Virus record (IMG/VR): IMGVR_UViG_3300030118_002542
Coordinates: 1 to 24,539 of that record
DNA length: 24,539 nt
Source: a virus
Strand: one strand, 5' to 3'
Below the pieces are notes generated by a model that saw nothing but the letters and a program-made list of their open reading frames with translations, searched no databases and was not told the DNA's origin. This document shows, in pieces, positions 1 to 23,172 of this stretch (its first letter is position 1; each line of letters starts with the position of its first letter). Both the position numbers and the translations under genes were made by a program.

Positions 1-3000
1 GCTTCTTGTGAAATAACTTTACCAGCAAACTCAGGTTTTAACTTATATAATGGTACCTGACTTGTTTTACCATCTGATCTTTTATGTTTACCGTTTTCAA
101 TAACTGGCTCATAAAAAAAGTCAATTAATCTTTTCTTTAAACCTAAAGATCTACCTTTTACGCTAGGATCTACCACTATGTTTTCTCCTAACTCATTTAT
201 ATCTGCATCTTGTTTAGTGACATTTGTACTAGGTAAAGATCTTATAAGGTTTTTTACGTTGTTATCGTTATTGTAAAAGCTTTGTATGTTACCAGCTTCT
301 GATGCTTCTGGCACACCATTTTCATCTATTTTTTTAGCGTAAGTTAAGTTTTTAGCTGGATTTGTAATTTTTTCAGCTGGCACATTAAATATTTCAGCTG
401 CAACTTTACCAGTGTTTTTATCTTGAACTTGTTTAAACGTGTCTCCTTTTTGAACATCAATAGCTTCTATTATAGAGTTTTCTTTTTGTTTTATTTGTGG
501 AAAACCACTTAACATATTTACTTTTACTCTAGGCTCATCTAAAGATTTGTTTTCTTCTTTTGTTAAGTCATCAGCAAACTCTCTGTTTAAATCTTGTCTT
601 TGTTCGTTAATTTCTTGTAGGCTAAAATCAGGTATTACAGAAACATTTGGATCTGCAAAATGATCTAGCATCCTAAATCTTATTCTACCATTTAAAAAAC
701 CATACAATGTACCTCTTCCATCAAAGCTTCTATCGGCTTTTGACTCTAACATCCTAAGCGTAACATCATTTGTAAGCTCTTTTTTCATATCTACTATAGA
801 ATCAGGAGCAAAACCTTTTACTAAGTTAGGATATTTAGTAAACCAGTTATTAACTTGAGCTTCTACCATACCAGGTATTTCGCTCGTTAAGTTAATAGAG
901 TCTGGATTAAACTTATCTTGTACAAAAGTTGACACACCAGTTTCGTTATCTACAGTGCTAGCATCGTCAACAAGTTGTTGTAAATTTTGTTTTGTTCTAT
1001 CAACAACATCACTCTTTTTAGCGCCTTTTACTTCAGAAGCAACGTTAGTTCCAGCATCTTTTGCAGCTTTTAATTTACGTTTAGCAACAGGTGAAAGCTC
1101 ACCTTTTCTAAAGTTATCAATAAATTCTGTTAACCAAAAAGCAGCGTTACTATCAGTGTATATATTAAAGTCTTGATCTGCACCTAAACGTTTACCTAAT
1201 CTTGTTCTACCTAATTTATTTTTCCAACCTTCACCAGCTTTATTTTTTATATCGTTAAATTCAGTAGCAAAACTATCTCTCATTAAAAGATCTTGAACAG
1301 ATTTAGTATATTCATCTTTATATTGTTCTGATTGTTCTTCAAAACTTTTACCTTCTTGATATAAAAGCTTATCGTCAGTATCAACTAAACCATTAACTCT
1401 TTTTAAAGCTAAATCATGTACAGTTTTACTGTTTTTACCCATAAAACTATTCAGCTTATCTGCATAATTGTTTTTTTCTTCTACACTTTTAAAAGCATGA
1501 TCGTCTATAAAATGGCTTATTTCGTGAGACATAACAGTTCCTTGTAGTAAGTCTCCGTTGTCTAGATTTTTCTTAGCAGCTTCTTTGTCTTCAACGATGT
1601 ATTTATTGTCTATAATAACACCTTTTGCTCTACCGCTTTTAATAGCTTCACTTATATTATCTTTTTCTTCCTGTGATAAAGAATCTGAATCGTATACAGC
1701 TTTTTGTAAACCAGCTTGATCACCAGCATCAACTATTTCTAATTTTCCAAGCTGTTCGCCAGTTAAAATACTTGTAGCGTTTGTTCTACCTTCACTAGCT
1801 TGCATGTAAGCTTTTCTTTGATTTACTAAAAGATTTTTAGAAAAGTCTTCATATATAGCGTTTTCTAGCTCTGTTTTTTCTTGTTTAGTTAACTCTGCGT
1901 TTTTAGGATCGTTTATTATTTGATCTACTTGGTTTTTTACAAAAGGATCTGCTTTAGCTTTTTTAATATTATTATTAGTATTTTGCTCTCTCAAAGCATT
2001 TAATACCATTATAGCTTTTTCTCTTTTATTTGCTGCTTGATAATCTTTATTACCTTGCAGTTTTCTTTCCATAGCCTTACCAGCTTCGCCATAATTATTT
2101 TCAGCAAAATTATTATAATCTATTTTACCAGTTATTTTTTCTCTTAAATCTTGTATGGCTTTAAGTTTGTCTTGATATTTTGTTGCCTCACCTTTATCTA
2201 ATGATTTTATATAAGAATCTCTTTTTGCAGCAATAACTTTATTGTTATCATTTGGATTAACACCGGCAGCTTGATTTAAAAAGTTTTCTTCCATACCAGC
2301 TTTAATAAGCTTTTGTACGTTTTCACTACCGACAGATAAAGCATCAACCTCTAAACCTACAGAACCACCAGCTATATCATCTACTATAGATTTATATTCA
2401 TCAACATATATATCTTTCATATCACCTTGAGCATCTGATATTTTTAACTCAAGTTCTTTTAGTTTATTAAGCTGACCGTTTACTTGGTTTCTATATTCTT
2501 TTGATTGCATTTGTTCTACTATAGTAGAGTATGCAGAAAAAGTACCTGTTGTTGGTCCTGCAGAAACTATAGATGTTACAGCAACATCATCTAAGGTAGA
2601 AAAATCAAAGTCTTTACCTAGTATCAAACCATCATTTAATATATTAAGAGCTTCAATACTTGTTTCTTCAAATATTTCACCAGCTGTTTGTTTTGCTGTT
2701 GTACCGCCAAAAGCACCAAACGCCCTTAAGTTTGATCTGAATATTTTATTACTCATATCAAGTGTTGGCATGCTTAATCTTCTTGTTATAGCTAAAGTGT
2801 TAGGAACTGTACCAACAAGACTCATGACACCAGCTTCTATTAAACCAGACTGTATAGAAACTCTAAGCATTTTATCTCTACCAATATCTCCTTGTAATAT
2901 TACTCTTTCAAGATTAGATTTTGTAGTTAAAAACTCAAAATCACTCATATTAGCCCTGTTCTTTTCTAACTCTGCTAACTGTGTTTTAGCTAATTGAGCA

Positions 3001-5270
3001 CCTTCTTTGGCTATGCTTAACTCTAAATATTTATCAGAAGCAGAGTATGTTCCAAATAATGCTGGCGCTGTAAACCTAGCTAAAGCACTACCAGTACCAA
3101 AAACACCTCCAACAATACCAGTACCTGTCATTGCTATAATAGTATTAGCTCCTTGGGTAGAAGCTTCTCTAAGAGCAAACCTACCTTTTTGTCCTGTAGC
3201 TAAAGCTGTGGCGTAATCAATTTTCTTTTCTAAACCAACTTCAACACCTTCTTCCATTGATTTCTTTTTTTGCATTGCTGCTTCAGCATCTGTTAAAGCA
3301 AGAAAAGAATAACCTATACGTCTAAAACCATTTTGAAATTCTACGCTAGATATTTTAAATATATCAGACTCTCTAGTTGTTTGATCTACTAAACCTAAAG
3401 TTTCACCGTATTTGTTTTGCCAATTTAAATAATCATTTTTGTAATCATTTAGTGTATTATTAAAGTCTTCAACTTTATTATCTACGTATTTTCTCTTTTG
3501 TTCAAATCGTTTTTTAAATACTTTTATAGCTTCTTCGTCTTCACCATCAAAAATAAAATTACCATTTTCGTCCATTTTAACACTGACACCAGCTTCATTT
3601 GCTTCTGCGGCTAAAACTTTTAATTCGTTACCGTATTTTTTATATTCTTTTTGTAAAATAGACTCGCCTGTTGAAACAAAATCTTCAACATTTTTATCTA
3701 TTATTTTCTTTTCTTGTATAGAATTTCTTTGACCAACCTCAGCGCCAACTTCAATTAAATTTCTATTTGACTCTCTTATAGATTTATCTGTCTCTGATCT
3801 AACAATACCGTTTATTGTTTTTATTTCGTGTTTATGGATAGCCTGTTTTATTTGAGCATCCATGTAATTTATTTCTTTTAGATTATCTTCGCTTTCAGCT
3901 TGTCTAGGATCAAAGTTTGGGTTAGGTATTTTTTTATTAAATAAGGCTCTAGCTTTTTCTTTATCTTCACCTTCAGGTAAAGTATCTATAATAGAATTAA
4001 CATTAAGCATGTTTCCAACAACCTCGTTATCATCATTGTAAGCGCCACGGCCCCAAAATTCATCTGGCGTCATACCAGCTGATCCAGCAAAACCTTCTTG
4101 TATGTAATTCCAAATAGACATTTCTCTTTTGTCTTTTGAAATACCTTTTGCTAAATCCTCAAAAGAATCTTTAATTGAGTTTATAGTTTCTTCAGAAACA
4201 CCAGCGTCCTTTAAATAAGTAGAAACAAAATTAGAATAATCTTTTTTGTAAAAAGTGTTTCTTGCAAGCTGTTTGTATTCACCACTGTTAATAGCGCTTT
4301 CTTTTAAATTAGCACTTTTTTCAACAGAGTCATTGTATAAAACATCTGCATCACTAAGTATTTTAGTTACATCATCTTCCTGTGCGTTTTCAAATAAATA
4401 AGATCTTAGTTGATTTAATCCAGCGCCTACTCTACCAGGTTCAAAACCTACTTTATCTGTAATGTCTACACCGTTATAAGTTAACCTATCTTTACCATCA
4501 AGATTAGGATTTTCCTCGTATTTGTAACCAGCGCTGCCCCAAATATCGTTAAAACCATCGGCGTCATCAAACTGTAAACTACTTAAAAGATCTAAGTCTT
4601 TTTCATTGTTTTTGTAAAAATCATTAACTTCTTGAAAAGCTTCTAAACTATTTCTATCGTCTGGATCTAAAGTATAATTTTTACCATTTGGTAAGTTTAT
4701 GCTAACGTTAGCACCTACATCTTTAACGCTAATTCCTGGGTAGTTTGGACTAGCTTGTAGCTTTTGAGCTATAGTGTTTTCGTCTTTTGTAATCCAAGTT
4801 CTAGGATCGTTTTCATCAAAATCTTTTTTTGTAGCCTGTGTAAACTCAAGCTCAGTTGTATCATCAGACTCTCTTCTTTCATCTGCTAAATAAGCAGCAA
4901 CTTCGCCTTTATCTTTAGTCGCATCGTCTTCTACAGTTTCTTCATCAGAAGTTTCTTCTTCTACTATTTCTTTTATTACAGGAGCTTCTTCTTCCTTAAC
5001 ATCTTCTACAGCTACTATAGGCGCTCCTTGATTTGTTTGTTGTTGTGTATTATCTGACCTAGATTCAGGTAGACTTGGTAGGACATTGTTTTCAGAATTA
5101 TAATATTTATCTTCAAAAGAATCATAGTCTAAAGTATATTCTTCAGTAGAACGAACGTTATCGTATACTTTTCTTCTATAATCTGGGCTTTCAAACTTAG
5201 CCTTAAAAAGATCATAGCTTTCAGTATACCTACCATCTTGAGATAAAGTATTATATAAATTTTCTAACAT
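1..5270 (-). CDS. Giant virion cargo/ejection protein with HExxH metalloprotease motif (partial, 3' end outside window)
   Basis: From the ATG at 5270-5268 I read an open frame with no stop down to base 3 (1756 codons), so the C-terminus lies outside the window. Residues about 87-120 form a Glu/Asp-rich linker. Long charged helical stretches follow. Two Gly/Ala/Thr-rich apolar segments lie at about 705-740 and 888-913. The motif HEISH at residues 1249-1253 (bases 1512-1526), followed by FIDDH ending at His1258, is a zincin-type zinc site: two His ligands, catalytic Glu1250 and a possible third ligand His1258. The start follows the previous gene's TAG by 5 nt, and no Shine-Dalgarno is visible. 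Position after two smaller internal-virion-like genes, size and apolar segments suggest a protein packaged in the head and ejected with DNA, like the large cargo proteins of crAss-like phages or T7 gp16. The reading frame is certain, the peptidase motif is seen, and the role is inferred. Confidence 0.85.
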   Translation of the reverse strand, partial: MLENLYNTLSQDGRYTESYDLFKAKFESPDYRRKVYDNVRSTEEYTLDYDSFEDKYYNSENNVLPSLPESRSDNTQQQTNQGAPIVAVEDVKEEEAPVIKEIVEEETSDEETVEDDATKDKGEVAAYLADERRESDDTTELEFTQATKKDFDENDPRTWITKDENTIAQKLQASPNYPGISVKDVGANVSINLPNGKNYTLDPDDRNSLEAFQEVNDFYKNNEKDLDLLSSLQFDDADGFNDIWGSAGYKYEENPNLDGKDRLTYNGVDITDKVGFEPGRVGAGLNQLRSYLFENAQEDDVTKILSDADVLYNDSVEKSANLKESAINSGEYKQLARNTFYKKDYSNFVSTYLKDAGVSEETINSIKDSFEDLAKGISKDKREMSIWNYIQEGFAGSAGMTPDEFWGRGAYNDDNEVVGNMLNVNSIIDTLPEGEDKEKARALFNKKIPNPNFDPRQAESEDNLKEINYMDAQIKQAIHKHEIKTINGIVRSETDKSIRESNRNLIEVGAEVGQRNSIQEKKIIDKNVEDFVSTGESILQKEYKKYGNELKVLAAEANEAGVSVKMDENGNFIFDGEDEEAIKVFKKRFEQKRKYVDNKVEDFNNTLNDYKNDYLNWQNKYGETLGLVDQTTRESDIFKISSVEFQNGFRRIGYSFLALTDAEAAMQKKKSMEEGVEVGLEKKIDYATALATGQKGRFALREASTQGANTIIAMTGTGIVGGVFGTGSALARFTAPALFGTYSASDKYLELSIAKEGAQLAKTQLAELEKNRANMSDFEFLTTKSNLERVILQGDIGRDKMLRVSIQSGLIEAGVMSLVGTVPNTLAITRRLSMPTLDMSNKIFRSNLRAFGAFGGTTAKQTAGEIFEETSIEALNILNDGLILGKDFDFSTLDDVAVTSIVSAGPTTGTFSAYSTIVEQMQSKEYRNQVNGQLNKLKELELKISDAQGDMKDIYVDEYKSIVDDIAGGSVGLEVDALSVGSENVQKLIKAGMEENFLNQAAGVNPNDNNKVIAAKRDSYIKSLDKGEATKYQDKLKAIQDLREKITGKIDYNNFAENNYGEAGKAMERKLQGNKDYQAANKREKAIMVLNALREQNTNNNIKKAKADPFVKNQVDQIINDPKNAELTKQEKTELENAIYEDFSKNLLVNQRKAYMQASEGRTNATSILTGEQLGKLEIVDAGDQAGLQKAVYDSDSLSQEEKDNISEAIKSGRAKGVIIDNKYIVEDKEAAKKNLDNGDLLQGTVMSHEISHFIDDHAFKSVEEKNNYADKLNSFMGKNSKTVHDLALKRVNGLVDTDDKLLYQEGKSFEEQSEQYKDEYTKSVQDLLMRDSFATEFNDIKNKAGEGWKNKLGRTRLGKRLGADQDFNIYTDSNAAFWLTEFIDNFRKGELSPVAKRKLKAAKDAGTNVASEVKGAKKSDVVDRTKQNLQQLVDDASTVDNETGVSTFVQDKFNPDSINLTSEIPGMVEAQVNNWFTKYPNLVKGFAPDSIVDMKKELTNDVTLRMLESKADRSFDGRGTLYGFLNGRIRFRMLDHFADPNVSVIPDFSLQEINEQRQDLNREFADDLTKEENKSLDEPRVKVNMLSGFPQIKQKENSIIEAIDVQKGDTFKQVQDKNTGKVAAEIFNVPAEKITNPAKNLTYAKKIDENGVPEASEAGNIQSFYNNDNNVKNLIRSLPSTNVTKQDADINELGENIVVDPSVKGRSLGLKKRLIDFFYEPVIENGKHKRSDGKTSQVPLYKLKPEFAGKVISQE

Positions 5271-5275
5271 GCTTT

Positions 5276-6406
5276 CTAGTTAAGAGATCCTTTACCAGTT
5301 GATTTGCCGTAACCTAAAGGAGCATCGTAATTATTGTATTCAATTTGCTGGTTCATTGTCATAAACTCAGCTAAATATTCTTTTGCTATTTCAAAGTTTT
5401 CTGGCAGCTCCATCATTCTGGAAACTGCAACCTTATCTGTTTGGCTTAACTTTAAAAATTCTTCACCATATATTTCACCGTCTTTATTAACATCAGCTGT
5501 AAAAGTTGAGCCTTTTGGTATTTTCAAACCTAAACCTTTTGCTCTAACATTACTAAAATCTGGATGATCTTGAACAGATAATAAAAAGTTTGGTCCAAAA
5601 CCTAAATCACCTTTCATTAAAGAGTTTATATTATCTTTAGTTATTAAATCTTTATTTCTACGAATTTCACTGTTAAAATTAAAAGGTATATTTTTACTTT
5701 TATCAGCTCTTACTCTTTCTACACCTTCAAGTAAAGTTTTTATTTCTTCTGTAGGTCTTCTATTTCTAGTAACTATTTTATCCCACTCTGAAGCTGTTAT
5801 AGTTTTTTCTTCACCATTTAAGAGTATTTTCATATTTAAAGACTTATTTTTTTTATCATACACAGGTCCTATAAAATTTTTACCTTGCTTTGTCATTGCA
5901 GCAATTATTTTTTTAGAATCAGCGTCCATGTTGTCTAATAATTTAAGTTCTTTTAAACCATCAAAAACACCTTTCCAGTTTTGCTGTTGAGTAGCTCTTT
6001 CTTTTTGTTCTCTTAAAATTTTTTGTTGTAGTCTCGGATCCATAGAAGCGTCAAGAAAAGCTTTTCTTTCTTCTTCTTCTATTTGCATAAACTTATCATA
6101 AGTATCTCCAGTAGCCCAAGAACTTCTAGCGCCAAAAGCTTCCATACCTTCATCGTAAGCAGCGTTTGCTTCTTCTTCTTTTCTTTTCTCTTCAGCTGCT
6201 TCTTTAGCTTTTTGCTCTTCAAAACCTAGTAAAGTGTTTGTTATTTTTCCAGCTGTTTCAGTTATTTCATCAGTAACTCCAGTGGCAGCCTCATCAATAG
6301 TTTTAATTGTAGTTCCTGTATCTAAAGAACCTTTAACTCTATTTAAAATGTCTCCGCCTAAACTATAATTTAATGACCTGCTAGCAGGTGCTTTTCCTTT
6401 TGCCAT
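5276..6406 (-). CDS. Probable internal virion / cargo protein (376 aa)
   Basis: I do not recognise a named family. The 376-aa product is soluble and rich in Lys and Glu. It has a predicted helical, highly charged stretch at about residues 55-150 (runs such as KAKEAAEEKRKEEEANAAYD), followed by a mixed alpha/beta region and a short Gly/Ser tail. No signal peptide or membrane segment is seen. It starts 3 nt after the TAA of the 230-aa gene (TAA-AAT-ATG), in the same frame, and ends with TAG, 5 nt before the ATG of the giant protein. Lying between a gp14-like small protein and a giant probable ejection protein, it occupies the place of a middle-sized ejection protein such as T7 gp15. That comparison rests on gene order, not sequence similarity. 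Confidence 0.85.
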   Translation of the reverse strand: MAKGKAPASRSLNYSLGGDILNRVKGSLDTGTTIKTIDEAATGVTDEITETAGKITNTLLGFEEQKAKEAAEEKRKEEEANAAYDEGMEAFGARSSWATGDTYDKFMQIEEEERKAFLDASMDPRLQQKILREQKERATQQQNWKGVFDGLKELKLLDNMDADSKKIIAAMTKQGKNFIGPVYDKKNKSLNMKILLNGEEKTITASEWDKIVTRNRRPTEEIKTLLEGVERVRADKSKNIPFNFNSEIRRNKDLITKDNINSLMKGDLGFGPNFLLSVQDHPDFSNVRAKGLGLKIPKGSTFTADVNKDGEIYGEEFLKLSQTDKVAVSRMMELPENFEIAKEYLAEFMTMNQQIEYNNYDAPLGYGKSTGKGSLN

Positions 6407-7604: not shown

Positions 7605-7967
7605 TTATTTACTGCTAACGAATATATCAGCGCCAATACTAAATATTTCTGCTTTTCTTTGAGAGTTGTTTACAAACTTAACATCTGCAAAATAACCTAA
7701 TATACTACTAAGATTTGCTTTATTGTCTTTGCTAAAAAAAACAAAGTCAGTCGCACCATCATAAGTACCTGGTAAATTAGTATCTACAGTTACTACAGGT
7801 GAGTTTGACAAAGGATTTTGTATTCTAGTTATAGTACCTATTTCTGTAACAGGTTGACTATTTACTTTAAAACCAGCTGTAGTTGTTGTTGGTACAGTAT
7901 AAGCAGTATCTCCTACTTGGCAAGATACGTTTAGTGGTGCAGAAAATGTAAGTGTAAGTGTAGGCAT
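7605..7967 (-). CDS. Conserved small virion-module protein (120 aa), function unknown
   Basis: This short, beta-rich protein has an N-terminal half of alternating Thr/Val/Leu strands, then SKDNKANLSSILGYFADVKF (about residues 79-98) and an ending like GADIFVSSK. From memory, proteins with this C-terminal pattern (a small domain next to tail or structural genes) are common in marine phage genomes and are usually unannotated. Its ATG overlaps the TAA of the 2535-aa gene by one base (TAATG), a classic coupling junction, so it is probably translated with the tail protein and may be its chaperone, tip or decoration partner. No catalytic motif is seen. Confidence 0.85.
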   Translation of the reverse strand: MPTLTLTFSAPLNVSCQVGDTAYTVPTTTTAGFKVNSQPVTEIGTITRIQNPLSNSPVVTVDTNLPGTYDGATDFVFFSKDNKANLSSILGYFADVKFVNNSQRKAEIFSIGADIFVSSK

Positions 7968-10900
7968 TAGTTAACAGATATAAAGTTGTCTAAAAATATA
8001 TTTATCTCATCATCATTTGGTATGCTACTAACTTCAATAACTCCTCTAACTTTAACAGCCCCAGCATCTGTAAAAGCTTCAATGCTTTGAACTCTAACGT
8101 TAGCGCCTTGCTGAGCTTTAGTAAATACAATCTCTACTGGAGCGGCAACAGTAGCGCTCGTAGCAGGTGTAAACGTTAGCGCTGTAGCGCTAGTAACTGA
8201 AGCTACAGTTCTTTCAGCACCGGCAAAAGTAAATTTCATACCAGACGATATACCGTTTGTTGAAGAAACATTTAGTGTTGTAACGCCAGAGTTATGACTA
8301 CCAGAGCTTGTAGTTGAAACTTCATTTGAAACAGCAAAGTCACTAGCAACCGGTTGTCTACCACCGTTTTCAGTTATACTTAAAGTATTATCACCTTGTG
8401 GTGCTACAGTTATTTCAAATGTTTTTACAGAACCATCGTTAGTACTAAAAATTAATGTTCTACCATCAGTGACAGTTACGTTTTGATTTGTTGTTATATT
8501 AACGTTGTCTTCATTAACAACAGAAACTGTAGTATTAGTAGGAACTCCAGTACCAGATATAATCATACCAGGCTCAATACCAGTTGTAGGCGTGTCTAAC
8601 AATATTGAAGTTGTAGTAACACCAGCAGTACCACCTGTTGTAGTTATAGTTCTAGGTTCTTTTACATTTGAAGTTGGCATTGTAGTTGTTGTTGAACCAG
8701 TTATAGTAACATTATTTTCATTAGTTGTAAAACCACCTATAGTTAAAGTACCTATACCTTCTTGTATTATAGATGCTTCTCCATGAGCATTAGGTACTTC
8801 AGCATGAAGCGTTGTGTCTCCAACAGCTGCGATAATAATATCAAAACGTTTTTTACCACCTGTATTTCTAGGTAAAGTAACAACGTGAGTATTTACACCA
8901 GTAGTACCTATAGTTTGTGTTCCGCTATTAGTAGATCCAGTTTGAAATACGTTATTTGTAAAGTTATAATAACCATTTTCGTTAACAATACTATTGCTGG
9001 TTGGACTCAACTGTTGCGTTACTTGAACTGTATATGTTGCGCCAGAAGTTCCATTAACTGTTACTGGTACCGTGCTTGATATATTAGGTGCAGTTGAAGG
9101 ATTGTTAACACTATGAACCTGATTAGCTGGTATAGTAGGCACAGCAAGAAGTGTTGAGTTAACTATAAACTTATGATGAAGTTTGCATAAGTGAGCTGGA
9201 TCAGGGTTGAGTGGTGGGTTTGGTGGTGGCTCGTAGTTTATATCTACAGAAAAACTTGTTAGTCTACCATTAGTATATCCAGCGTTGTGTATTACAGTAC
9301 CATATGCGCTAGTGTAATTAAAACCTGGAGTACTTATGTTTGAACTACCAATACTTAATCCGCCAGGAACATTAGCGTCTTCATAGTAATAACCACTAGC
9401 TGCTGTAAAATTAACTCTTACAACAGTGCTCCAACCACCATCTAAAAGAGTAGAGCTTTGATATATCTGTCTAGTTGGAAGGCTAGAGCTTCCAGCTTGC
9501 TCTTCAGTTCTAGTTATTGTAGCTCCATAAGGGCTTTGTACTGGATAAGTTACAGTTTGATTAGAGTCAAAAGGGTGTTGAACTCTAACACATAAATTTC
9601 TTTGAGCAGGCGTAGATGGATTAGTGCCATCGTCTATATCTACGTAAATATTAAGATCAGCAGTCGGCGCATTAAACGAGCTTAGACTAACTCTAGCAGT
9701 TACAGTATTAGCTGGATCTCCAGCAATACCATTATCTATAAATTCAACTTGAGTAACATTTGTATCTACGTTACCACCAGTCCATATATTACCACTACTA
9801 TTTGTAGCGCCACCAATTTTAAAGCGAGCTGCTAGTAAATTAAAACCAGAATAAGAACCTCCAACAATGTTTGATATTATTAAATCAACAGTTTGAGCAG
9901 GTATTGTGTTAGTAACAGTGTGTGTTTGTTGCACTTGCGTTGCTACCCAATTAGTCTGTAACGCTGTGTCCCAAGCACCACCAGTTCCATCATCGCCTTG
10001 ATATGTAGTTGAAACGTTGTCAGCTATAGTTAATGTCATTTGACCTTTTGGCGGTTGACTACCCCCACCTGGATCGCTGTGTGAGAAAGAAGCTTGACCT
10101 AAACCTTGTACAGAAAACTCTCTTTCATCTAAATTACTTAACGTTGTTGCGTCACCACATATTGTGCTAAAATATTTACCTTCTTTATTTTTAAACTCAA
10201 CAGCTTTACCTGTTTGTTTGTTTGTTATTATTGATTCTACAAACCAACCTGGTTTAGCGTCTAAATTATAATACTCACCATCATTGAATGTAACAGTACT
10301 AGAACCACCAGTATTATTAAGCGCTGTTGCGTTTGAAGTTGTAAACTGTGTTATTTGAGCTTGAGTACCCTCATAATTTAAACTACCAAAACTTTTAACA
10401 GTCTCTGGCATGTCGTTAAATACTACCGTAACACTTGAGTTATATTGTGTGCCATAAAAATTATTTCTAACTTCATTGTCATGATGAATATATAGTTGGC
10501 CACCTTTAAAAGTGTAGTACTCATTATTTAAACTTATGCCTTGCTCTGGAGTATATGATCTAAAGCTTACCCAACCTTTTGCCTTTAAACTATAGCTAAC
10601 TGTAGTAAATTCTGGAGTTAACTGTATTTGAGAGTATCTTTTACCAACAGTTATATTATATTCTTTTTTCTTTTGATCATAACTACCTATAGCTATATCT
10701 GCGTAATCTTTAAATAAATCTGTAAAGTAATCTTTCATACCTAAATCAGATATAGATCTAACACCTTCTGTACTTAATGCTAAAACTTGACCTCTTGTTA
10801 TATCTGCAAAATACATTTCATAAGGTGTTGCTGCAAAAGACTCAGCATTAGTTGATATACCGTAGTTACCTGCATAAGGCACGGCTTGCCCTAAAACCAT

Positions 10901-13900
10901 GTTGTTAGAAGTTACATTTGCTTTTCCATCTGCGTTAAACAAAGCGTCTTTGTTTGTTAATATTTTTAACACTTTATCTTCACAAAAAGTTACTAAATTA
11001 GTATTTCTAGTAAATAGCTTTTGTATGCTACCATATACAGGGTTTAAATCTTTTGTTATTTTTTCTGCAGCAATAAACTGATTTGTGTTATTTACACCTA
11101 CATTAGAATTATATATACCAGAAAATATTAAACCGTGTTTTCTTCTTTCTTCTTTTACAGTTTCTGCTAATACAGTTGAAGCTTTTACACCTGTGTCTAT
11201 CTGAGGTTTATTAAAAGCATCTCTTATTCTATCACTTTCAACACCGTTTCCAAAAGAATAACAATTGCTCCAGTCTAACATATGATATTGTCTTGATAGT
11301 TTTTCAAAACTAACAGAACCAGGACCACCATGTAATTTTAAAGAGCTACCACTTGTTACTTGACCATCAATTTTAGAGCCGATCCAATCGTTGTTTTTTG
11401 TTATAAAAGTTATTGTTTGGTTATCTGTTATTGTTGTGTTTGCAGGAAGAGCTGGTGTAAACGTAATTGTTTGACCATCACTCCAAGAAAACACAGTGTG
11501 CGTTGTGAGGTTGTTAGAACTATCTCTTGTCGTAAACGTACTACCTATAGGTATATACTCTTCATTTGTTTCACTGGTTAACAAAAGTGGAAACTTACGA
11601 CTAGCTTGGTAGTATATATCTAAGTCTACAGACTCTCTTGGTTCAATCTCCCAAACAGCTGGATTGTCAGTAAAGTTATCTACAAAATCATTTACATTAG
11701 CCGGCTCTATTATTTCAATAACGTCAAAACTATCAGCATCATGTCTTAATGCTCTAACCTGTACAGCTGCATGAGATTCTGTACCAAGCATTGGATGGTA
11801 TTGACTACCAAGAACTCCAATAGCAGGTTTAACACCTATAGTCCATCGTTGACGCATACAGTTGTCTCTATACAACTTTTTATTATCATTAGGTCTACCA
11901 TCTTTATAATTTCTTATACCCCAAAGACCAGTGTATATTGTAGCGGCCTGCCTATATTCATTATGACCGCCAGGCGTAAGACCATTAGCGTCTTTATAAG
12001 CATATTCAAATGTAGTGTAAACTTGTCCATCAGGATCATTTCTAAATCTAAACTGTGTTCCAGGCGTACATAATCTCTCTATAAACTTCCAAGCTTCAGC
12101 TCTAATACCACTATTATGCTCTGACAATTTATGTTTGTAAGGTGGATTCCAAATTGGTTTGTTTTCCATACCAGACCAAGAAATATCCATAAAACACTGA
12201 GAGTCTTCAGGGTTGGCTGGATCGTTAATAACAGTGCCCCATATACCTCTAGATATTGCACCACCTTGATTATTAGAAGTTGTTTTTTTAGCACTAGTAA
12301 AATTATTATTGTTATTATACCACTCGTTTTCAGCGTCTGGTTTAAACAGTAAACCACGAAAACCATTATCAGCATTTCCGTTAAGTCTATCACCAGGTAT
12401 CATATCTTCATGACCTGTCCACTGATAAGCAGTACAACAGTCAATAAAAAATGATTTTAAATCTTTTATTCCTTTCCAAAACTCTTGAGCTTGTGGGCTT
12501 ATATTGTTATAAGTAGCTGCATCATTACCTAACGAGTGTACAGGATCACTATCAACATCGCTTCTAGTTACTCCAAATCTTTTGCTATTTGTTCCACCCC
12601 ATTGATAAGTTGGTGTATGATGACCAAGTTCTGTTGGGTGGTTTTTAGCAGAAGCATTTCCAGACTCATTTTTAAGACGTTGTCTGTGTGATGTTGTTAT
12701 AGGAAAACTAGGTCCACCCTTGTAACCATTGTTGTGTATATACCTTAATTGCCAACTATCTTTAATAGAATAAAACTCTGTATCAGAATCACTAGATAAA
12801 ACATACTTTGATAAACTTTCATCTCTATATATTTTAACAAAAAATCTACCATCAAACTCAGGTCTGTTTTCTATTTTATGCTCTAATAAAGTTATTATTA
12901 AGCCGTTAGGCGGTTGTGTACCAGCAGAAGTATTATCAGAGTCTGTAAATGACATGTCCTCACCAAATATAGTAGATAAAGTTATAGTAATTTTAGTTCC
13001 ATCATCAGACATTTTCATAACTTCATATTCTTCTGAACTATTTGTTGGAGCTTGTACTTTTAAAAATAACTTGTCAGGCGTAAATGTTAATATTTGATCT
13101 CCAAAAGAATCTATAAAAGCACCTCTTTGAATAGTAACTTCACTTTCACCTGGTATAGGATAACCTTGACCAATACCGTTACCAAAATTACCACCAGCAC
13201 CAGAACCTGAACCACCTGATATTGTTTGAGTGCTACCGTGTTTACATTTACCTACTAACTTTCTTGTTGTTTTTATAAAGTCTGGCGCTTCATTTTCTAT
13301 AGCTAATACTTTATATCTTGCTTTGTCATAAACAGGCTCATTAGTTCTGTGTGCTTTTTTAAGTATTAAATAATCATCTTCTGTAATTTTATTTCTTTCA
13401 GCAGAAGGAAAAGACAACCATATATTACCGTCGTTAGCAAAGTAATATCTATCCATTGCCATGTTGTAATATTCAGAAGATGTTTCTTTTACATAATAAG
13501 AGTAATGAGTTGCCCAAGGCGGTGCATCACTTTTTAATCTAGTAAAAAGTCTATTTCTTTGTGTAGAACAAGATTTATCAAATTTAACAGAAGCATTTTT
13601 AGAAGTTAATACTGGTGTTTCTCTTCCATAGTTATCGCAAAATACTACACCAACTTGATAAGTTCTTAATGATTTTACAGAAGCAGCTGCAAACTCTTCA
13701 CCTATATCATCAAGTTCTTGAGAGTGTTTTGATATTTCTAAAACAGGATCGTCAGCATTATAGTTTTGTAAATAGTTAGCGTATATTAATCTGTTAGCAC
13801 TTATCTCCTGGGCTTTAGCAAGTCTTGGCACATTGTCATAAGGTCGTAATAATTGATTTGAAGGTAGTACAGCGTGTATCACGTCTGAAGTTACAACATA

Positions 13901-15574
13901 CTTACCTCTGTCGTAAGCATTGTTAGCTGTATCAGGCCATATAGGATGCCCGTCTTTTTGAGATATTGATTTTACAGTATATACAGTAGGTTTTCCATCT
14001 TCTTTATATAATAAGTCTATACCTATAACATCGTTAGTAATTAACTCTTCTGAATAATAATTACAAAGCTCTAAACTTCTAAGTCTATTGCTCATACCAA
14101 AATTATAACCTTTTCTTGGCTCGTAATCAAAATTACCTGGTAAAAATGCTAGCTCAGAAAAAGGCGCAAACGTTGAGTATTCACCATCTTGATATTTATA
14201 TCTATAACTAAATCTTACAAATTTATTTTCAAACAAAGGATCAGCTTTAGTTTTTCTTACAAAATAAGGAGTAGAAGCTTCTTCAACGTTATTTGATATT
14301 GATAGTATTCTAACAACAAAACCAGTTGCATGTAAATTATCTGGGTCTGAAACTAAAGATGTTGTCACTACAGCTCTTATTTTAGACTTACCTTCTTCAA
14401 AAGAAGATATAGAAGCAGAAGTATCATCTGTAAAAAGTAAAATATCACCAACTCTAAAATCTACAGCGCCATCAAATGTAATTGAAACATCATCACCAGC
14501 CGCTTTACCTGTAAAATCAATTGTTGCAGCTTGTGCAGACGGATTAGTAACACCACTAGAATTTACTCTTGGATCTTTTTGATCTGACATCTTCAAGTGC
14601 AAAGCTTGTGTTGGTGATTTTTTTATTACAGTTATATTTTGCTCTTGTACATAAACAGCTTTTTTACCTGTTCTATCTGTTACAACTTCAAAATTGTCGT
14701 TATTATCTCTGTCAGCTACTAGTCTTGTATGGAAATTATCTGTGTCACCTGTAAAAATATCTGTTGTTGGAGTACCGTTGTTTATACCAGCAACTCCACC
14801 GCCTATTAAATACTCAGTACCACCTGTACCAGCTATTGATCTTTTAATATTTATTTTTTTAGGCTCTGTTATATTATCTGTCCAAAATAAAAAATCATCT
14901 AAAACGTTTATACCGGTTATTATTACATCTTTACTATAGTTTAAAACTCTATCAGCAATAAATGTTAATTCATCACTACTACTAACGCTAACGTTTTTAC
15001 TTAAAGTTATTTTCCATCTACTGTTACCAGTATCATAAGCTATATCAGTTACTTTTATATTGTCATCAGGACCGTAGCTAGCATGTATAAGTTTCATACC
15101 TATTCTAACGCCTGTTTTATTTATTGTTGAAGATCCTAAATCTGGTATTCTAACATTGTTAGTATTATTAGAAGCTATACTAGCAGAGGTTTTTACATTA
15201 TGAATATCTACAAAAACATATTTAATAGTGTTTTTTAAAGTATCATATTCTAATATATAATCTTTTTGTATATCATTTGGGTTACCATTGTCGTTTCTGA
15301 CACTGGCAGCTACCATATAATATATTTTATCCGTTTCCGGTAAAGCTATAGTTCCTATGCAAGTTGAAGTTGTTGGTATGTTATAGACTCCACTGTTTTC
15401 TATAACATTTCTTAGAGTGTTACCCATTAGTGTTTGGGCAGAACCAACGTCGGATTCGTCTGAAGTAGATATTTGTATATTTAAAGCGTCTCTGTATTGG
15501 CCGTTTGGTATTAACCTTTCATCAAGGTCTTTATTCATCTTGGCCTGAGAGAAGTTACGTTTTAACTCCGGCAT
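7967..15574 (-). CDS. Giant tail stabilization/muzzle-like protein with Ig-like C-terminal extension (2535 aa)
   Basis: The N-terminus (ELKRNFSQAKMNKDLDERL, then NGQYRDALNI and a TSDESDVGSAQTLMGN segment) is, from memory, the hallmark of the 'stabilization/muzzle' tail protein of crAss-like and related marine phages. At 221-246 there is a WTD-type propeller-like segment (LDDFLFWTDNITEPKKINI). At about 446-475 there is an aromatic stretch with FSYRYKYQDGEYSTFAPF. A Gly/Ser linker lies at about 783-806, and a second large conserved region at about 810-1840 includes TFCEDKVLKILTNKDALF near 1525. After about residue 1840 the sequence becomes Thr/Ser/Asn-rich and beta-repetitive, as in Ig-like or adhesin domains. 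The start is 3 nt after the preceding TAA. The probable role is closing the tail end and contacting the host. Length far exceeds what I recall for gut crAss-like homologues. Domain borders are by eye. Confidence 0.85.
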   Translation of the reverse strand: MPELKRNFSQAKMNKDLDERLIPNGQYRDALNIQISTSDESDVGSAQTLMGNTLRNVIENSGVYNIPTTSTCIGTIALPETDKIYYMVAASVRNDNGNPNDIQKDYILEYDTLKNTIKYVFVDIHNVKTSASIASNNTNNVRIPDLGSSTINKTGVRIGMKLIHASYGPDDNIKVTDIAYDTGNSRWKITLSKNVSVSSSDELTFIADRVLNYSKDVIITGINVLDDFLFWTDNITEPKKINIKRSIAGTGGTEYLIGGGVAGINNGTPTTDIFTGDTDNFHTRLVADRDNNDNFEVVTDRTGKKAVYVQEQNITVIKKSPTQALHLKMSDQKDPRVNSSGVTNPSAQAATIDFTGKAAGDDVSITFDGAVDFRVGDILLFTDDTSASISSFEEGKSKIRAVVTTSLVSDPDNLHATGFVVRILSISNNVEEASTPYFVRKTKADPLFENKFVRFSYRYKYQDGEYSTFAPFSELAFLPGNFDYEPRKGYNFGMSNRLRSLELCNYYSEELITNDVIGIDLLYKEDGKPTVYTVKSISQKDGHPIWPDTANNAYDRGKYVVTSDVIHAVLPSNQLLRPYDNVPRLAKAQEISANRLIYANYLQNYNADDPVLEISKHSQELDDIGEEFAAASVKSLRTYQVGVVFCDNYGRETPVLTSKNASVKFDKSCSTQRNRLFTRLKSDAPPWATHYSYYVKETSSEYYNMAMDRYYFANDGNIWLSFPSAERNKITEDDYLILKKAHRTNEPVYDKARYKVLAIENEAPDFIKTTRKLVGKCKHGSTQTISGGSGSGAGGNFGNGIGQGYPIPGESEVTIQRGAFIDSFGDQILTFTPDKLFLKVQAPTNSSEEYEVMKMSDDGTKITITLSTIFGEDMSFTDSDNTSAGTQPPNGLIITLLEHKIENRPEFDGRFFVKIYRDESLSKYVLSSDSDTEFYSIKDSWQLRYIHNNGYKGGPSFPITTSHRQRLKNESGNASAKNHPTELGHHTPTYQWGGTNSKRFGVTRSDVDSDPVHSLGNDAATYNNISPQAQEFWKGIKDLKSFFIDCCTAYQWTGHEDMIPGDRLNGNADNGFRGLLFKPDAENEWYNNNNNFTSAKKTTSNNQGGAISRGIWGTVINDPANPEDSQCFMDISWSGMENKPIWNPPYKHKLSEHNSGIRAEAWKFIERLCTPGTQFRFRNDPDGQVYTTFEYAYKDANGLTPGGHNEYRQAATIYTGLWGIRNYKDGRPNDNKKLYRDNCMRQRWTIGVKPAIGVLGSQYHPMLGTESHAAVQVRALRHDADSFDVIEIIEPANVNDFVDNFTDNPAVWEIEPRESVDLDIYYQASRKFPLLLTSETNEEYIPIGSTFTTRDSSNNLTTHTVFSWSDGQTITFTPALPANTTITDNQTITFITKNNDWIGSKIDGQVTSGSSLKLHGGPGSVSFEKLSRQYHMLDWSNCYSFGNGVESDRIRDAFNKPQIDTGVKASTVLAETVKEERRKHGLIFSGIYNSNVGVNNTNQFIAAEKITKDLNPVYGSIQKLFTRNTNLVTFCEDKVLKILTNKDALFNADGKANVTSNNMVLGQAVPYAGNYGISTNAESFAATPYEMYFADITRGQVLALSTEGVRSISDLGMKDYFTDLFKDYADIAIGSYDQKKKEYNITVGKRYSQIQLTPEFTTVSYSLKAKGWVSFRSYTPEQGISLNNEYYTFKGGQLYIHHDNEVRNNFYGTQYNSSVTVVFNDMPETVKSFGSLNYEGTQAQITQFTTSNATALNNTGGSSTVTFNDGEYYNLDAKPGWFVESIITNKQTGKAVEFKNKEGKYFSTICGDATTLSNLDEREFSVQGLGQASFSHSDPGGGSQPPKGQMTLTIADNVSTTYQGDDGTGGAWDTALQTNWVATQVQQTHTVTNTIPAQTVDLIISNIVGGSYSGFNLLAARFKIGGATNSSGNIWTGGNVDTNVTQVEFIDNGIAGDPANTVTARVSLSSFNAPTADLNIYVDIDDGTNPSTPAQRNLCVRVQHPFDSNQTVTYPVQSPYGATITRTEEQAGSSSLPTRQIYQSSTLLDGGWSTVVRVNFTAASGYYYEDANVPGGLSIGSSNISTPGFNYTSAYGTVIHNAGYTNGRLTSFSVDINYEPPPNPPLNPDPAHLCKLHHKFIVNSTLLAVPTIPANQVHSVNNPSTAPNISSTVPVTVNGTSGATYTVQVTQQLSPTSNSIVNENGYYNFTNNVFQTGSTNSGTQTIGTTGVNTHVVTLPRNTGGKKRFDIIIAAVGDTTLHAEVPNAHGEASIIQEGIGTLTIGGFTTNENNVTITGSTTTTMPTSNVKEPRTITTTGGTAGVTTTSILLDTPTTGIEPGMIISGTGVPTNTTVSVVNEDNVNITTNQNVTVTDGRTLIFSTNDGSVKTFEITVAPQGDNTLSITENGGRQPVASDFAVSNEVSTTSSGSHNSGVTTLNVSSTNGISSGMKFTFAGAERTVASVTSATALTFTPATSATVAAPVEIVFTKAQQGANVRVQSIEAFTDAGAVKVRGVIEVSSIPNDDEINIFLDNFISVN
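8118..8330 (-). repeat. Ig-like module copy 2 within the tail protein (about residues 2415-2486)
   Basis: The segment SGVTTLNVSSTNGISSGMKF, continuing through ASVTSATALTF to a VEIVF strand, follows the pattern Thr/Val strand, G-I-x-x-G-M, V-x-x-V, T-x-T-x-T strand, L/I-x-F. It resembles the module encoded at about 8445-8650, with shared spacing but low identity. It is probably a small beta-sandwich unit duplicated long ago in the C-terminal extension. Confidence 0.4.
8445..8650 (-). repeat. Ig-like module copy 1 within the tail protein (about residues 2309-2376)
   Basis: The segment contains TTGIEPGMIISGTGVPTNTT followed by VSVVNEDNVNITTNQNVTV and a closing LIF strand. This G-M-x-I-x-G-x-G pattern with a late Asn/Val/Thr strand is a recurrent beta-module in phage tail and adhesin proteins. 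A related pattern appears at about 8118-8330 and, more weakly, near the N-terminus (about 14946-15139, residues 146-210). Boundaries are approximate. Confidence 0.4.
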
Positions 15575-18068: not shown

Positions 18069-19580
18069 TTAGTAAGTACCTGTACCTTCAACTAGTATAA
18101 AGTTGTTAGCACCTTGTACAACTAAACATCTTTCAGATAAGAAGTGCATTTCCATCGCATCTAAATCAGTAGTAGCAGCTCCAACCGAACCAGTAGTCCA
18201 AGTTTTGAAACGTCTGTCTTCTAATTGAGAAGCTCTGTATCTTACATGTAGGAAAGGTCTCTTAAGATTTTTTCCTAATGATTGATCGTACACAGTTGTA
18301 GTACCAGCCGGAATAAATACCGCTCTAACTTGGTTAACTACATCTTTAATACCACCTCTTGTAGCTTTGTCGTTTAAGTATCTCCAGTCAGATTTGTAGA
18401 AGTCATAAGAACCTCTTCTGAAACCAGAAAAACCTAAGTTTAATGCCATATCTTCAGAATTGTCAAATACACCGTAAGATGTACCTCCAGATCCGTAAGA
18501 ATTTTGACCAGCTAACATGTCATCGATAGTAAGCATGATGTCTCTGTTACCAAAGATCATGTACTCTTCAATAGCACCTTGCTTGTCAAGCTCTTTTAAT
18601 ATTTCATCAAAATCACCTAAAATCTGATCAGGAGTACCAGCAGTTGTTAAACCATCGTAAGCGTTACCTCTAGACTTAATAGCTGCGAACATACCTTCTG
18701 AACCACCTAAAGTATTAGATAAGTGAGAAGTTACAGTGTTTGTAGCAAGTTCATGCTCAACCATTGTCATTTCTAAGTAATCAGTAAATCTAGATCTAGT
18801 ATCACCAGCAGCTTTTAAGTACCAGTAGTAACCATTTTGTCCGTCTTCACCAGTAACTTCAACCCAACCAATTTGAGCAGCATCAGATCCTGAGACCTCA
18901 TATCTGTCTTTCATTATGATAGGCTTGTTAGTAAAAGACTTAAAACGTGGTTGGTTAGATGCAGTTCTACCAGTAGTACCTTTTGCATACTCAGAACCAA
19001 ATACCATCATACCACCTGTAACATTGCTGTTAGAGAAAGTTATATCAGCAAGTCCAGTACCGTCGTCAGTTATAGCATCAACAGTATATCTAGCGCAAAA
19101 TACACCAGAACCACTAACTTGAGCAGGAGTTAAAACATCGCTAACGTAACCTTTTACAGTTCCGTCACCGTCAGATAGTATAACTAAGTCACCAACTCTT
19201 ACAGCCATTTCAGCACTTGCAGCAGCAGCAGTAGCTCCTGTTACAGCATTACCATCAATGTCTTTAATAGCAGTAAAAGTATATACAGCTCCAGTTTCTC
19301 TTTTTATGTTACCTTGATATGATAAGTGTAATCTTGATTGTTCAGACCAGATTACTTGATCTGCGGACATTGCTTCTTCAGCTCCGACCATTTCTAAAAA
19401 TCCACCGATTGTTCTGTTACCGAACACTTCAGCTTCTTTTTCCATTAAATCTGGTAGAAATTGTTGTGCCCACCCTTTAGTTGTTTGAGACGTAAAGTCT
19501 ATATAGTTAGTCGTCAACGTCTGCGGTTGTGCGGATGGTACACTATTCAATAAGCTACCAGGAGTAAAAGTAGTTGCCAT
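18069..19580 (-). CDS. Major capsid protein, HK97-fold, crAss-like type (503 aa)
   Basis: The segment at about residues 218-275, including KPIIMKDRYEVSGSDAAQIG, WVEVTGEDGQNGYYWYLK and RSRFTDYLEMTMVEHEL, is what I recall as the signature of crAss-like major capsid proteins. The N-terminal part includes FLPDLMEKEAEVFGN (about 41-55), a beta-rich probable insertion domain lies at about 95-200, and the C-terminal half carries an EEYMIFGNRDIMLTIDD segment and a YRASQLEDRRFKTW segment. The 503-aa length suits an HK97-fold shell protein. The gene is noticeably richer in G+C than its neighbours, as expected for strong codon selection on the most abundant virion protein. The leader is A/T-rich with no Shine-Dalgarno. 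It lies after the acidic scaffold candidate and before a strong terminator. Confidence 0.9.
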   Translation of the reverse strand: MATTFTPGSLLNSVPSAQPQTLTTNYIDFTSQTTKGWAQQFLPDLMEKEAEVFGNRTIGGFLEMVGAEEAMSADQVIWSEQSRLHLSYQGNIKRETGAVYTFTAIKDIDGNAVTGATAAAASAEMAVRVGDLVILSDGDGTVKGYVSDVLTPAQVSGSGVFCARYTVDAITDDGTGLADITFSNSNVTGGMMVFGSEYAKGTTGRTASNQPRFKSFTNKPIIMKDRYEVSGSDAAQIGWVEVTGEDGQNGYYWYLKAAGDTRSRFTDYLEMTMVEHELATNTVTSHLSNTLGGSEGMFAAIKSRGNAYDGLTTAGTPDQILGDFDEILKELDKQGAIEEYMIFGNRDIMLTIDDMLAGQNSYGSGGTSYGVFDNSEDMALNLGFSGFRRGSYDFYKSDWRYLNDKATRGGIKDVVNQVRAVFIPAGTTTVYDQSLGKNLKRPFLHVRYRASQLEDRRFKTWTTGSVGAATTDLDAMEMHFLSERCLVVQGANNFILVEGTGTY

Positions 19581-20826: not shown

Positions 20827-23172
20827 TTAGTTAATTTTTGGGTTAAATTTATCGAGGCCTATACCACTCCCTACTATATCATTACCTGAAGATTCAAATT
20901 TTTTAGCATCTTTACCAGTTTGTTTCATAGTCTCGATATTTTCTTTACTTTTATTCTCCATATTTTTCAATTGAGAATTAAGGTCAAACTCATATTGCAT
21001 AAGTTCTTTTTTAAGTCTTACTTCTTCTTGCAAATATTCTAATCTAAATCTAGCCTCCGCTTGATCAACTTGAAGTTCAGAAGCTGTTTTAGCTTTGTTC
21101 TTTTGTATTTCAGCTTGAGCCGCAGCCTGTTGTTGTTGAGCATTTGCCTGAGCTTGCGCTTGAATATTTTGTTGTTGTGCTTTTTGATCTCTTTCTGATT
21201 TTTGTTTTCTTTTTAATTTTAAATACTGATTTGCAAGCCGCGTATTTTTTATTTCTCTAATATCAATAGCATCGTCTAACTCTATAAGTTTTTGAGATAA
21301 AGCTGTTTGTATATTGTTTTCAAGCATTTGTTTTTCTTCTTCATCAGGCTCTAGCTCTAAAAATATACCAAAGTCATATAGATGAAGCTCTTTCATTTCT
21401 TTTAATGTAGCAACATTATGAGCTCCTATAGCTTGTATAAAAGCTTCTTTTGTTGGTGAATATTCTAGTATGTCAGATATTCTTAATGATAATTTTTCAG
21501 CTATTTCAGCCGTAATAAACATTGAAGCTAACAACACATGTCTAGTAGCTACATTTGAATTAGCTGCAGCTAACTTTTGAACACCAACTAAAGCTTTAGG
21601 ATCAGGCACACTACCGTCTCTTGCCTCGTTAAGTCCGGTCGTATCTCTAATCATTTGTAAATAATAGTTATACGTTTGTATTAAGCTTTGTAGCTTACCA
21701 TTATTTGAACTGTTAGCTATTTGCTGTATAGGTATTTTACCGGCATTAGGATCACCGTCTTGTGTCATTGATCTACCAATAACAGAACCTGTTTGGAAGA
21801 ACATGTTTAAAGCTTCTTGTGGATTATAGTTCGTACCGTTACCTAAATCTATTTCAGCTAAACCATCAGCATCTAAATAAACACCATCTGGTACCATCTT
21901 TGACATTACTTGTTGTAGCTTTAAATGCGTTAACTGTATCATATCAGCAAAACCAGTTATTCTACTAACAGTGCTTTCTATTCTACCGTTGTACATACGT
22001 GGAGCTACAATAGAGTAATTCATCTTTACTTTATTATAATCACTCTTACTACGCATCATGTTTTCACATTTATTCCAAGCTAACAACTTGTCAGTACCTA
22101 GTATTAAAGCACCTTCATATAAAACCTCAACAGCTCTTTGTAATCTTGCAAAATTGCCTTCTTTGTTAGAAGGTGGATTAAAAGTATCTGGTTTTTGTAT
22201 AGCTTTTTCTGCTCCTGTTCCAGTTTCTTTTAACTTATAAGTATCGTGATTATATGTTTTATAATTAAAATAAAGTATTTGAACTTTGTTTTTATCATAA
22301 ACTTCTCTTTGAGTATATCTACCGGTTGGTCTTTTAGCGCTTTTTTGTATTGTTTCTAACTCTGATTGACTAAGATTAGGAAACTGTCTTACTAGTTCGT
22401 TAAAAGGTATTGTTTTAACTTCACCAACATAATATAAGTCTTCAAAATATGGTGATTCACAATATGAATAAACTAAGTTAGCTGGATCTACATACTCAAC
22501 TGTTACACCTTCACTAAAATTAAAATTAGTTTTTACAGCACCTATACCTAAAACCGTAAGATCACGAAGCATTCTTCTTCTTATTAAGTCATAGTTATTA
22601 CCGTCTAATAAAGTGTTTATAGCTTGCTCTTCAGCTATTTCTACATTTTGTTTATAGTCTAACTGCATATGAAGTTGTAACTCTTCTTCGTTTCCTGGTA
22701 ATTTAGTAGGATCACTTTCATAAAGATTCATACTCATACCAACTGCAGCTTGATTATTAAAGTCTTGAGATTTCATATCTCTTAATATAGACTCCATATA
22801 TTCAGTACGTTTACTAACACCGTATTGATCTTGTGAATATGCTTTTACATTAAACATACGTTCTGACATACCGTTAACAACTATATCAACAAACTTAGGT
22901 ATAATTGGAACTGGTGTCCAGTCTAAATTTAAATAAGACAAATCACCATTAATAGATAATTCGTCTTTGTATTTTTGTATTGATTGTTCACCTCTTGCGT
23001 ATAATCTTAATTGATGAAACTTTGATTGAGTGTCAAAGTATTTATTAGAATAAGTTCCGTTAAACCACTCTTGCTCGATAGCTCTAGCAACTCTTAATCC
23101 ATAGTCATAACTAGATTTTTCTAAGTCGCTTACGACTTGTGAAGGAAAGTTAACATGTACTGACTCAGCCAT
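20827..23172 (-). CDS. Portal protein, crAss-like type (781 aa)
   Basis: Residues about 80-125 contain YLNLDWTPVPIIPKFVDIVV, then NGMSERMFNVKAYSQDQYGV, which I recall as the signature of crAss-like portals. Later segments fit a portal core, including an LTVLGIGAVKTNFNF strand region (about 206-220), a wing and stem with MIQLTHLKLQQVMSKMVPDG, and a DTTGLNEARDGSVPDPKALV segment. The last 120 residues form a Gln/Ala-rich and then Lys/Glu-rich coiled coil (about 665-760), probably the barrel or a region touching packaged DNA. The ring would sit at one capsid vertex as the DNA channel and dock TerL. The start is 2 bases after the TerL TAA, with an A/T leader and no Shine-Dalgarno. The product is longer than many portals, mainly through the coil. 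Confidence 0.9.
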   Translation of the reverse strand: MAESVHVNFPSQVVSDLEKSSYDYGLRVARAIEQEWFNGTYSNKYFDTQSKFHQLRLYARGEQSIQKYKDELSINGDLSYLNLDWTPVPIIPKFVDIVVNGMSERMFNVKAYSQDQYGVSKRTEYMESILRDMKSQDFNNQAAVGMSMNLYESDPTKLPGNEEELQLHMQLDYKQNVEIAEEQAINTLLDGNNYDLIRRRMLRDLTVLGIGAVKTNFNFSEGVTVEYVDPANLVYSYCESPYFEDLYYVGEVKTIPFNELVRQFPNLSQSELETIQKSAKRPTGRYTQREVYDKNKVQILYFNYKTYNHDTYKLKETGTGAEKAIQKPDTFNPPSNKEGNFARLQRAVEVLYEGALILGTDKLLAWNKCENMMRSKSDYNKVKMNYSIVAPRMYNGRIESTVSRITGFADMIQLTHLKLQQVMSKMVPDGVYLDADGLAEIDLGNGTNYNPQEALNMFFQTGSVIGRSMTQDGDPNAGKIPIQQIANSSNNGKLQSLIQTYNYYLQMIRDTTGLNEARDGSVPDPKALVGVQKLAAANSNVATRHVLLASMFITAEIAEKLSLRISDILEYSPTKEAFIQAIGAHNVATLKEMKELHLYDFGIFLELEPDEEEKQMLENNIQTALSQKLIELDDAIDIREIKNTRLANQYLKLKRKQKSERDQKAQQQNIQAQAQANAQQQQAAAQAEIQKNKAKTASELQVDQAEARFRLEYLQEEVRLKKELMQYEFDLNSQLKNMENKSKENIETMKQTGKDAKKFESSGNDIVGSGIGLDKFNPKIN

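Follow-up and report, generated by a model that had tools for sequence, protein, structure and literature searches.

A predicted gluzincin-type metallopeptidase domain inside the giant, probable cargo protein of a marine crAss-like phage

A giant frame at the end of the structural gene block of a marine crAss-like phage encodes, in the interior of its product, what is very likely a zincin: a predicted gluzincin-type metallopeptidase domain spanning about residues 1150–1406 (positions 1053..1823, minus strand). Judged on sequence, this domain is common to two otherwise dissimilar types of giant protein and constitutes a previously unrecognised zincin family within an already known theme, that of zincin domains in giant injected phage proteins (Iyer 2017; N4 virion RNA polymerase; P23-45 gp96). 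Since an apparently complete zinc-protease site is kept in every relative found, the site probably cuts a protein during assembly or infection, most likely the giant itself.

The window and its giant gene

The window, i.e. the whole stretch of 24,539 bases analysed, makes up the entire public record of this virus, a crAss-like phage. Its assigned genes all lie on the minus strand, in the order partial terminase, portal, a 402-aa gene, capsid, ring and tail genes, muzzle, four small genes and the giant. The structural module comprises the C-terminal part of the terminase large subunit (23175..24407; phrog_6681), the portal protein (20827..23172; phrog_6547, 1e-141), the major capsid protein (18069..19580; phrog_13704 and synteny with Cellulophaga phage Calle_1) and a muzzle protein of 2535 aa with a crAss_MUZ_C domain (7967..15574; Pfam 3.8e-8, phrog_14478 3e-125). 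By Pfam, PHROG and synteny, the genes for muzzle, portal, terminase and rings are arranged as in crAss phages, and on this structural module the window is a crAss-like phage. The nearest named relatives of its portal belong to the environmental record MW202828 and to phages of Maribacter, Flavobacterium, Cellulophaga and Tenacibaculum; it is a phage of marine bacteria. Some features of the block vary among related phages. The muzzle protein of crAss001 has about 1370 residues, as against 2535 in the window, and in several relatives (L004, L005, L012, L014, L037) the muzzle stretch is split into two frames. GroEL and GroES genes lie within or near the structural block of four isolated relatives (L081, L082, L094, L095). 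In four contigs (G002, G020, G026, G029) the capsid-protein match spans one in-frame TAA, which could represent a genuine stop or an error, or be due to the alignment overrunning the end.

The giant begins with an ATG at position 5270 and stays open for 1756 codons down to base 3 (3..5270, minus strand), where it runs off the contig. The features that the sequence-only reading had picked out in this frame are all present: HEISH at residues 1249–1253 (1512..1526, minus strand) with an additional His at 1258, an acidic linker at about residues 86–140 (4851..5015), and two Gly/Ala-rich apolar stretches at residues 707–731 (3078..3152) and 801–829 (2784..2870), all on the same strand. The apolar stretches reach a Kyte-Doolittle maximum of 1.3–1.4, under the usual transmembrane cut. 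The same reading had placed the frame in the position of an ejection protein, and by synteny this is right, since in crAss001 the genes after the muzzle are those of the cargo proteins gp45–gp47, gp49 and gp50, which were seen in virions by mass spectrometry (PMC10172136). The giant is thus probably a virion cargo protein, packed in the virion and ejected with or ahead of the DNA, the argument for delivery to the host being its synteny with virion proteins of crAss001 and of phage phi14:2.

Because the window is the complete record, the C-terminus of the giant can be inferred from relatives only. Complete homologues mostly have about 3100–3450 aa. The closest long homologue (contig L117, also listed as G017) has 3182 aa and is 52% identical over 1661 residues; in this closest complete relative some 1900 residues follow the zincin domain, which is therefore interior in the chain. 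Past the point at which the window ends, the L117 protein contains a HAD-like DFDETL segment and then a C-terminal Cys/His-rich stretch with a weak match to DUF5763. A HAD-like DFD[DE]TL motif was seen in the full-length homologues L117:6584-16129, L083, L084, L085, L118 and L119, as was, in those where it could be seen, the Cys/His-rich end with its weak DUF5763 match. Complete homologues carry a predicted zincin, a HAD-like segment and a Cys/His-rich end, none of them above a curated cut-off. At the same position Maribacter phage Panino carries a giant of 1829 aa, annotated as a tRNA methyltransferase (L081:35423-40912), in which HExxH is lacking and to which the zincin profiles gave no match. 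When 50,697 phage records were searched by tblastn, no match was obtained for the window's giant, for the C-terminal part of a full-length relative, or for one giant of the second type described below (B-type), and no relative of the giant was found in the genome contigs searched. A virion RNA polymerase next to the giant had also been envisaged. No frame with the DFDxD catalytic motif of the crAss virion RNA polymerase was found in the contigs of the two best-covered relatives bearing homologues, and neither the window's giant nor its complete homologues contain the motif; a neighbouring polymerase is therefore unsupported for this clade.

The conserved site and its predicted fold

With eight His in 1756 residues, HExxH is expected 0.003 times in the giant, and it appeared in 0.25% of shuffles. 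A search with the muzzle protein gave 79 related contigs; where the sequence reaches far enough beyond the muzzle, most of the giants found there carry exactly one HExxH. At the 39 loci whose last giant frame has at least 1000 aa, 27 HExxH motifs were observed against 0.51 expected. The motif is thus non-random, recurring in the same-position giant of most related contigs.

Homologues of the giant were found by phmmer and profile scans in 18 loci, every one with HExxHxxD. In 17 aligned sequences, 24–61% identical to the window in this region, the H, E, H and D of this motif are invariant, and the E, Y and Q of DEYTKSVQD (residues 1319–1327; 1290..1316, minus strand), about 70 residues after HExxH, are kept wherever the sequences reach. 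In other contigs this gene position is occupied by giants of a second set, the B-type, with almost no BLAST similarity to that of the window. HHalign joined the two sets via the domain with a probability of 97% (E 2e-11, 170 columns); with HExxH masked the link still stood at 94%, and a reversed control failed. An alignment of 45 domains (A3) comprises 22 of the window's type and 23 of the second set, ranging from 12 to 63% identity to the window. Its only invariant columns are H1249, E1250, H1253 and E1320 (1311-1313, minus strand); HExxH had been a selection criterion for the second set, while E1320 had not. In profile searches over all loci, HExxH and the Glu were intact in every one of the 68 unique domains having both columns, 24 of which lay outside the profiles. 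The Asp three residues after HExxH (D1256; 1503..1505, minus strand) is invariant in the 17 homologues of the window's own type, but is not kept in the B-type giants.

Conservation of His and Glu in all the homologues found bears out the motif on which attention had been drawn, but not the residue proposed to complete it. His1258, the further His that had been singled out as a candidate third zinc ligand, varies among homologues (DDH, DDM, DQL or DVL) and was rejected for this reason. The third ligand is almost certainly Glu1320 in DEYTKSVQD, 70 residues downstream, and H1249, E1250, H1253 and E1320 together look like a gluzincin quartet, with H1249 and H1253 as the other putative zinc ligands and E1250 as the putative catalytic residue.

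An AlphaFold2 model of the core domain, made from the 45-sequence alignment, had a pLDDT of 80.8 and a pTM of 0.69, with block means of 90–98 over the HExxH and Glu helices. Its elements follow in the order strand, two helices, beta hairpin, helix, HExxH helix, two helices and Glu helix, E1320 falling in predicted helix 167–182, later than the HExxH helix. This predicted order fits the zincin-like core described for the peptidases of polyvalent proteins (PMC5512222). Structure prediction gave an order of elements that would suit a zincin, but Foldseek and VIA-align listed no solved zincin for the core-domain model, an absence that is no evidence for another fold. A first model of 346 aa with an N-terminal helical arm had a pLDDT of 68, and its matches in Foldseek, VIA-align and BFVD were merely helical look-alikes. 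Nor did profile searches place the domain in a known peptidase family: no curated family of Pfam, PHROGs or NCBIfam scored above its cut-off, the Pfam matches to M48, ATLF and M91 were weak, and the profile of alignment A2 gave nothing significant against the PDB, one M48 peptidase appearing at E 0.48. Since the fold search matched no solved zincin, the assignment as a zincin rests on ligand conservation.

Related giants and their apparent exchange

The giant does not share the relationships of the genes beside it. Most structural genes of the window are 72–89% identical to those of L008, L011 and L002: terminase and portal 86–87%, capsid 75–76%, muzzle 63–66%, falling to 43–44% for the 376-aa gene directly upstream of the giant (5276..6406, minus strand). 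Against the giants of L008 and L011, the window's giant gave no match in tblastn. Its match is instead the G017 giant, at 57–60% identity from residue 560 onward, although the structural genes of G017 are less closely related (capsid 58%, rings 42–43%, muzzle 39%). The giants of L008 and L011 are 69% identical to each other; compared with that of G017 their C-terminal part is 58% identical, while the first ∼2000 residues are without similarity. In other pairs of contigs with capsids 70–79% identical, the zincin-bearing part lacks any similarity. This discordance between body and structural genes is apparently due to exchange of cassettes inside the giant gene, an apparent exchange between phages with structural genes 75–89% identical that is itself new. 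For the window's own contig an assembly chimera is an unlikely source of the signal: there is no break in GC at 5270, although no second contig was found sharing its junction there. The same discordance is seen in other contig pairs.

A similar motif is found in gut crassviruses. In crAss001, gp47 carries GTTYHEAFHVVF 184 residues before its end, and its Steigviridae and Suoliviridae homologues share HEA[FYW]H and, downstream of it, a Glu-rich motif of the form E-x-x-[LMF]-AE-x-FR. In seven Suoliviridae (L157, L159–L164) body, zincin motif and RNA polymerase form one chain of 4.3–4.9 thousand residues, with DFDxD 1431–1529 residues past the zincin motif; in crAss001 and Dulem virus 41 (L097, L158) the gene ends 184 and 147 residues, respectively, past HExxH, and the polymerase has a gene of its own. 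The fused junction in the former and the gene border in the latter make the gut motif a marker of the boundary separating the cargo body from the virion RNA polymerase, which appears to be new. Under table 11 the giants of cr4_1, cr53_1 and cr113_1 (L159, L163, L164) contain 38, 40 and 73 in-frame stops, a pattern that reassignment of a stop codon would produce. Like the window, crAss001 and these Suoliviridae encode beyond the muzzle a giant cargo protein that has a single conserved HExxH and a Glu motif further on; unlike in the window, the motif borders a virion RNA polymerase. Between the gut domain and that of the window HHalign aligned the motif alone, and against the B-type giants an initial probability of 75% dropped to 32% when sequences were added and to 1% once the motif was masked. 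The parallel may be taken as an analogy. The main texts of PMC7886860 and PMC10172136 mention neither a protease nor zinc, and that of PMC7886860 no peptidase either.

Comparable domains occur elsewhere. The RNA polymerase associated protein gp65 of phi14:2 is, like the crassvirus cargo, a virion protein seen by mass spectrometry, and it contains HEIMH and, further along, EFISE; unlike that of the window, its domain is N-terminal, preceding a gp49-like region. Zincin-like MPTase domains occur in the multidomain, injected polyvalent proteins of phages (Iyer 2017, PMC5512222), which are giant multidomain proteins; they resemble the window's giant, putatively multidomain, in size, in a proposed entry with the DNA, and in an HExxH helix that precedes one bearing a conserved Glu; the widespread phage-type MPTase clade also has the Asp three residues after HExxH. 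In contrast to that clade, the window's domain lacks a conserved His closing strand 2 (no His outside HExxH is invariant among the aligned homologues), and it was therefore not filed there; it differs from the polyvalent MPTases also in having no curated family match and in lying within a crAss-like structural locus. The virion RNA polymerase of N4 likewise holds an HExxH domain, its C-terminal C1 domain, inside a giant ejected virion protein (PMC12633501, PMC5512222), but has in the same chain a T7-type RNA polymerase, none of which was found in the window's giant; HHalign of the window's domain with the single N4 sequence aligned the motif alone. Finally, gp96 of Thermus phage P23-45 is a giant virion protein with a metallopeptidase domain, to which it adds membrane segments and a virion RNA polymerase; it is, unlike the window's giant, the tail tape measure protein of a long-tailed phage, and the likeness is one of description (PMC10770324).

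Proposed function

The leading explanation, put forward tentatively, is that the domain is a cis processing protease within an injected giant cargo protein. H1249 and H1253 of one helix and E1320 of a later one would bind zinc, and E1250 would activate water. The domain would then act in cis on the giant polypeptide, cutting at the border between modules, either in the virion or once the chain refolds in the host, and thereby releasing parts of the giant. We know of no cleavage site or product of the giant. Cis processing is preferred because of the polyvalent-protein idea, the gut junction, and the analogy with phage P1 DdrB, a protein with an MPTase domain that is cut before packaging (PMC5512222). 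It agrees with the invariance of the quartet in 45 domains and its integrity in all 68 unique ones, the presence of the domain in two dissimilar giant types (also with HExxH masked), the zincin-like order of modelled elements, the interior position of the domain, and a cargo status indicated by synteny with virion proteins known from mass spectrometry. The lack of a solved zincin or a curated family among the matches speaks against it, as does the N4 virion RNA polymerase, which has such a domain and is packaged uncut (PMC5512222). The similar gut motif, exactly between cargo body and virion RNA polymerase, argues for processing, but it aligns with the window's domain by the motif only, and as no RNA polymerase was seen in the window's clade, the junction argument applies to the window by analogy only.

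Alternatively, the zincin might be an injected effector that, once ejected, cuts one or more host proteins concerned with defence, transcription or the envelope. Other conflict systems use MPTase domains as effectors (PMC5512222), and giant bodies that are wholly different between phages with similar structural genes are what conflict-driven exchange predicts. However, the catalytic domain persists through exchange of the remaining protein, and the gut motif lies at a module border, both of which fit processing better; nor is a host target known. We therefore regard an effector as unlikely, though it comes next to cis processing. A protease acting in trans, trimming virion proteins in assembly or cutting envelope or peptidoglycan-linked proteins to admit the DNA, would suit a location in a probable head-packaged protein and the two apolar stretches upstream of the domain. 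It is improbable, fusion into a giant cargo protein being unusual for an assembly protease and no trimmed virion protein being known for these phages. A non-proteolytic zinc site, with a structural role in keeping the giant stable within the virion or as it refolds, is slightly more improbable still: no activity is known and the fold search gave no peptidase match, but E1250, which would be a catalytic base and no zinc ligand, is as invariant as the ligands. That HExxH arose by chance within a helix has a negligible probability and was ruled out by conservation, for although the motif is short and matched no curated family, its expectation per protein is minute and it is invariant together with E1320 across 45 divergent domains.

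No viruses are commoner in the human gut than crassviruses, whose cargo proteins are very large while the constrictions of the tail measure under 50 Å. It is possible, although we hold it to be rather doubtful, that in crass-like phages from the sea to the human gut a conserved zincin divides the giant ejected proteins into modules, body and cargo, and in gut lineages sets the virion RNA polymerase free; such giants would then be injected polyproteins with bodies exchanged among phages. Mosaic, exchanged giants mark where related phages differ most. The domain may bear on how a giant cargo passes a constricted tail and becomes active, and its conserved putative active site, at the RNA-polymerase border in gut lineages, offers one residue to mutate and one cut to seek.
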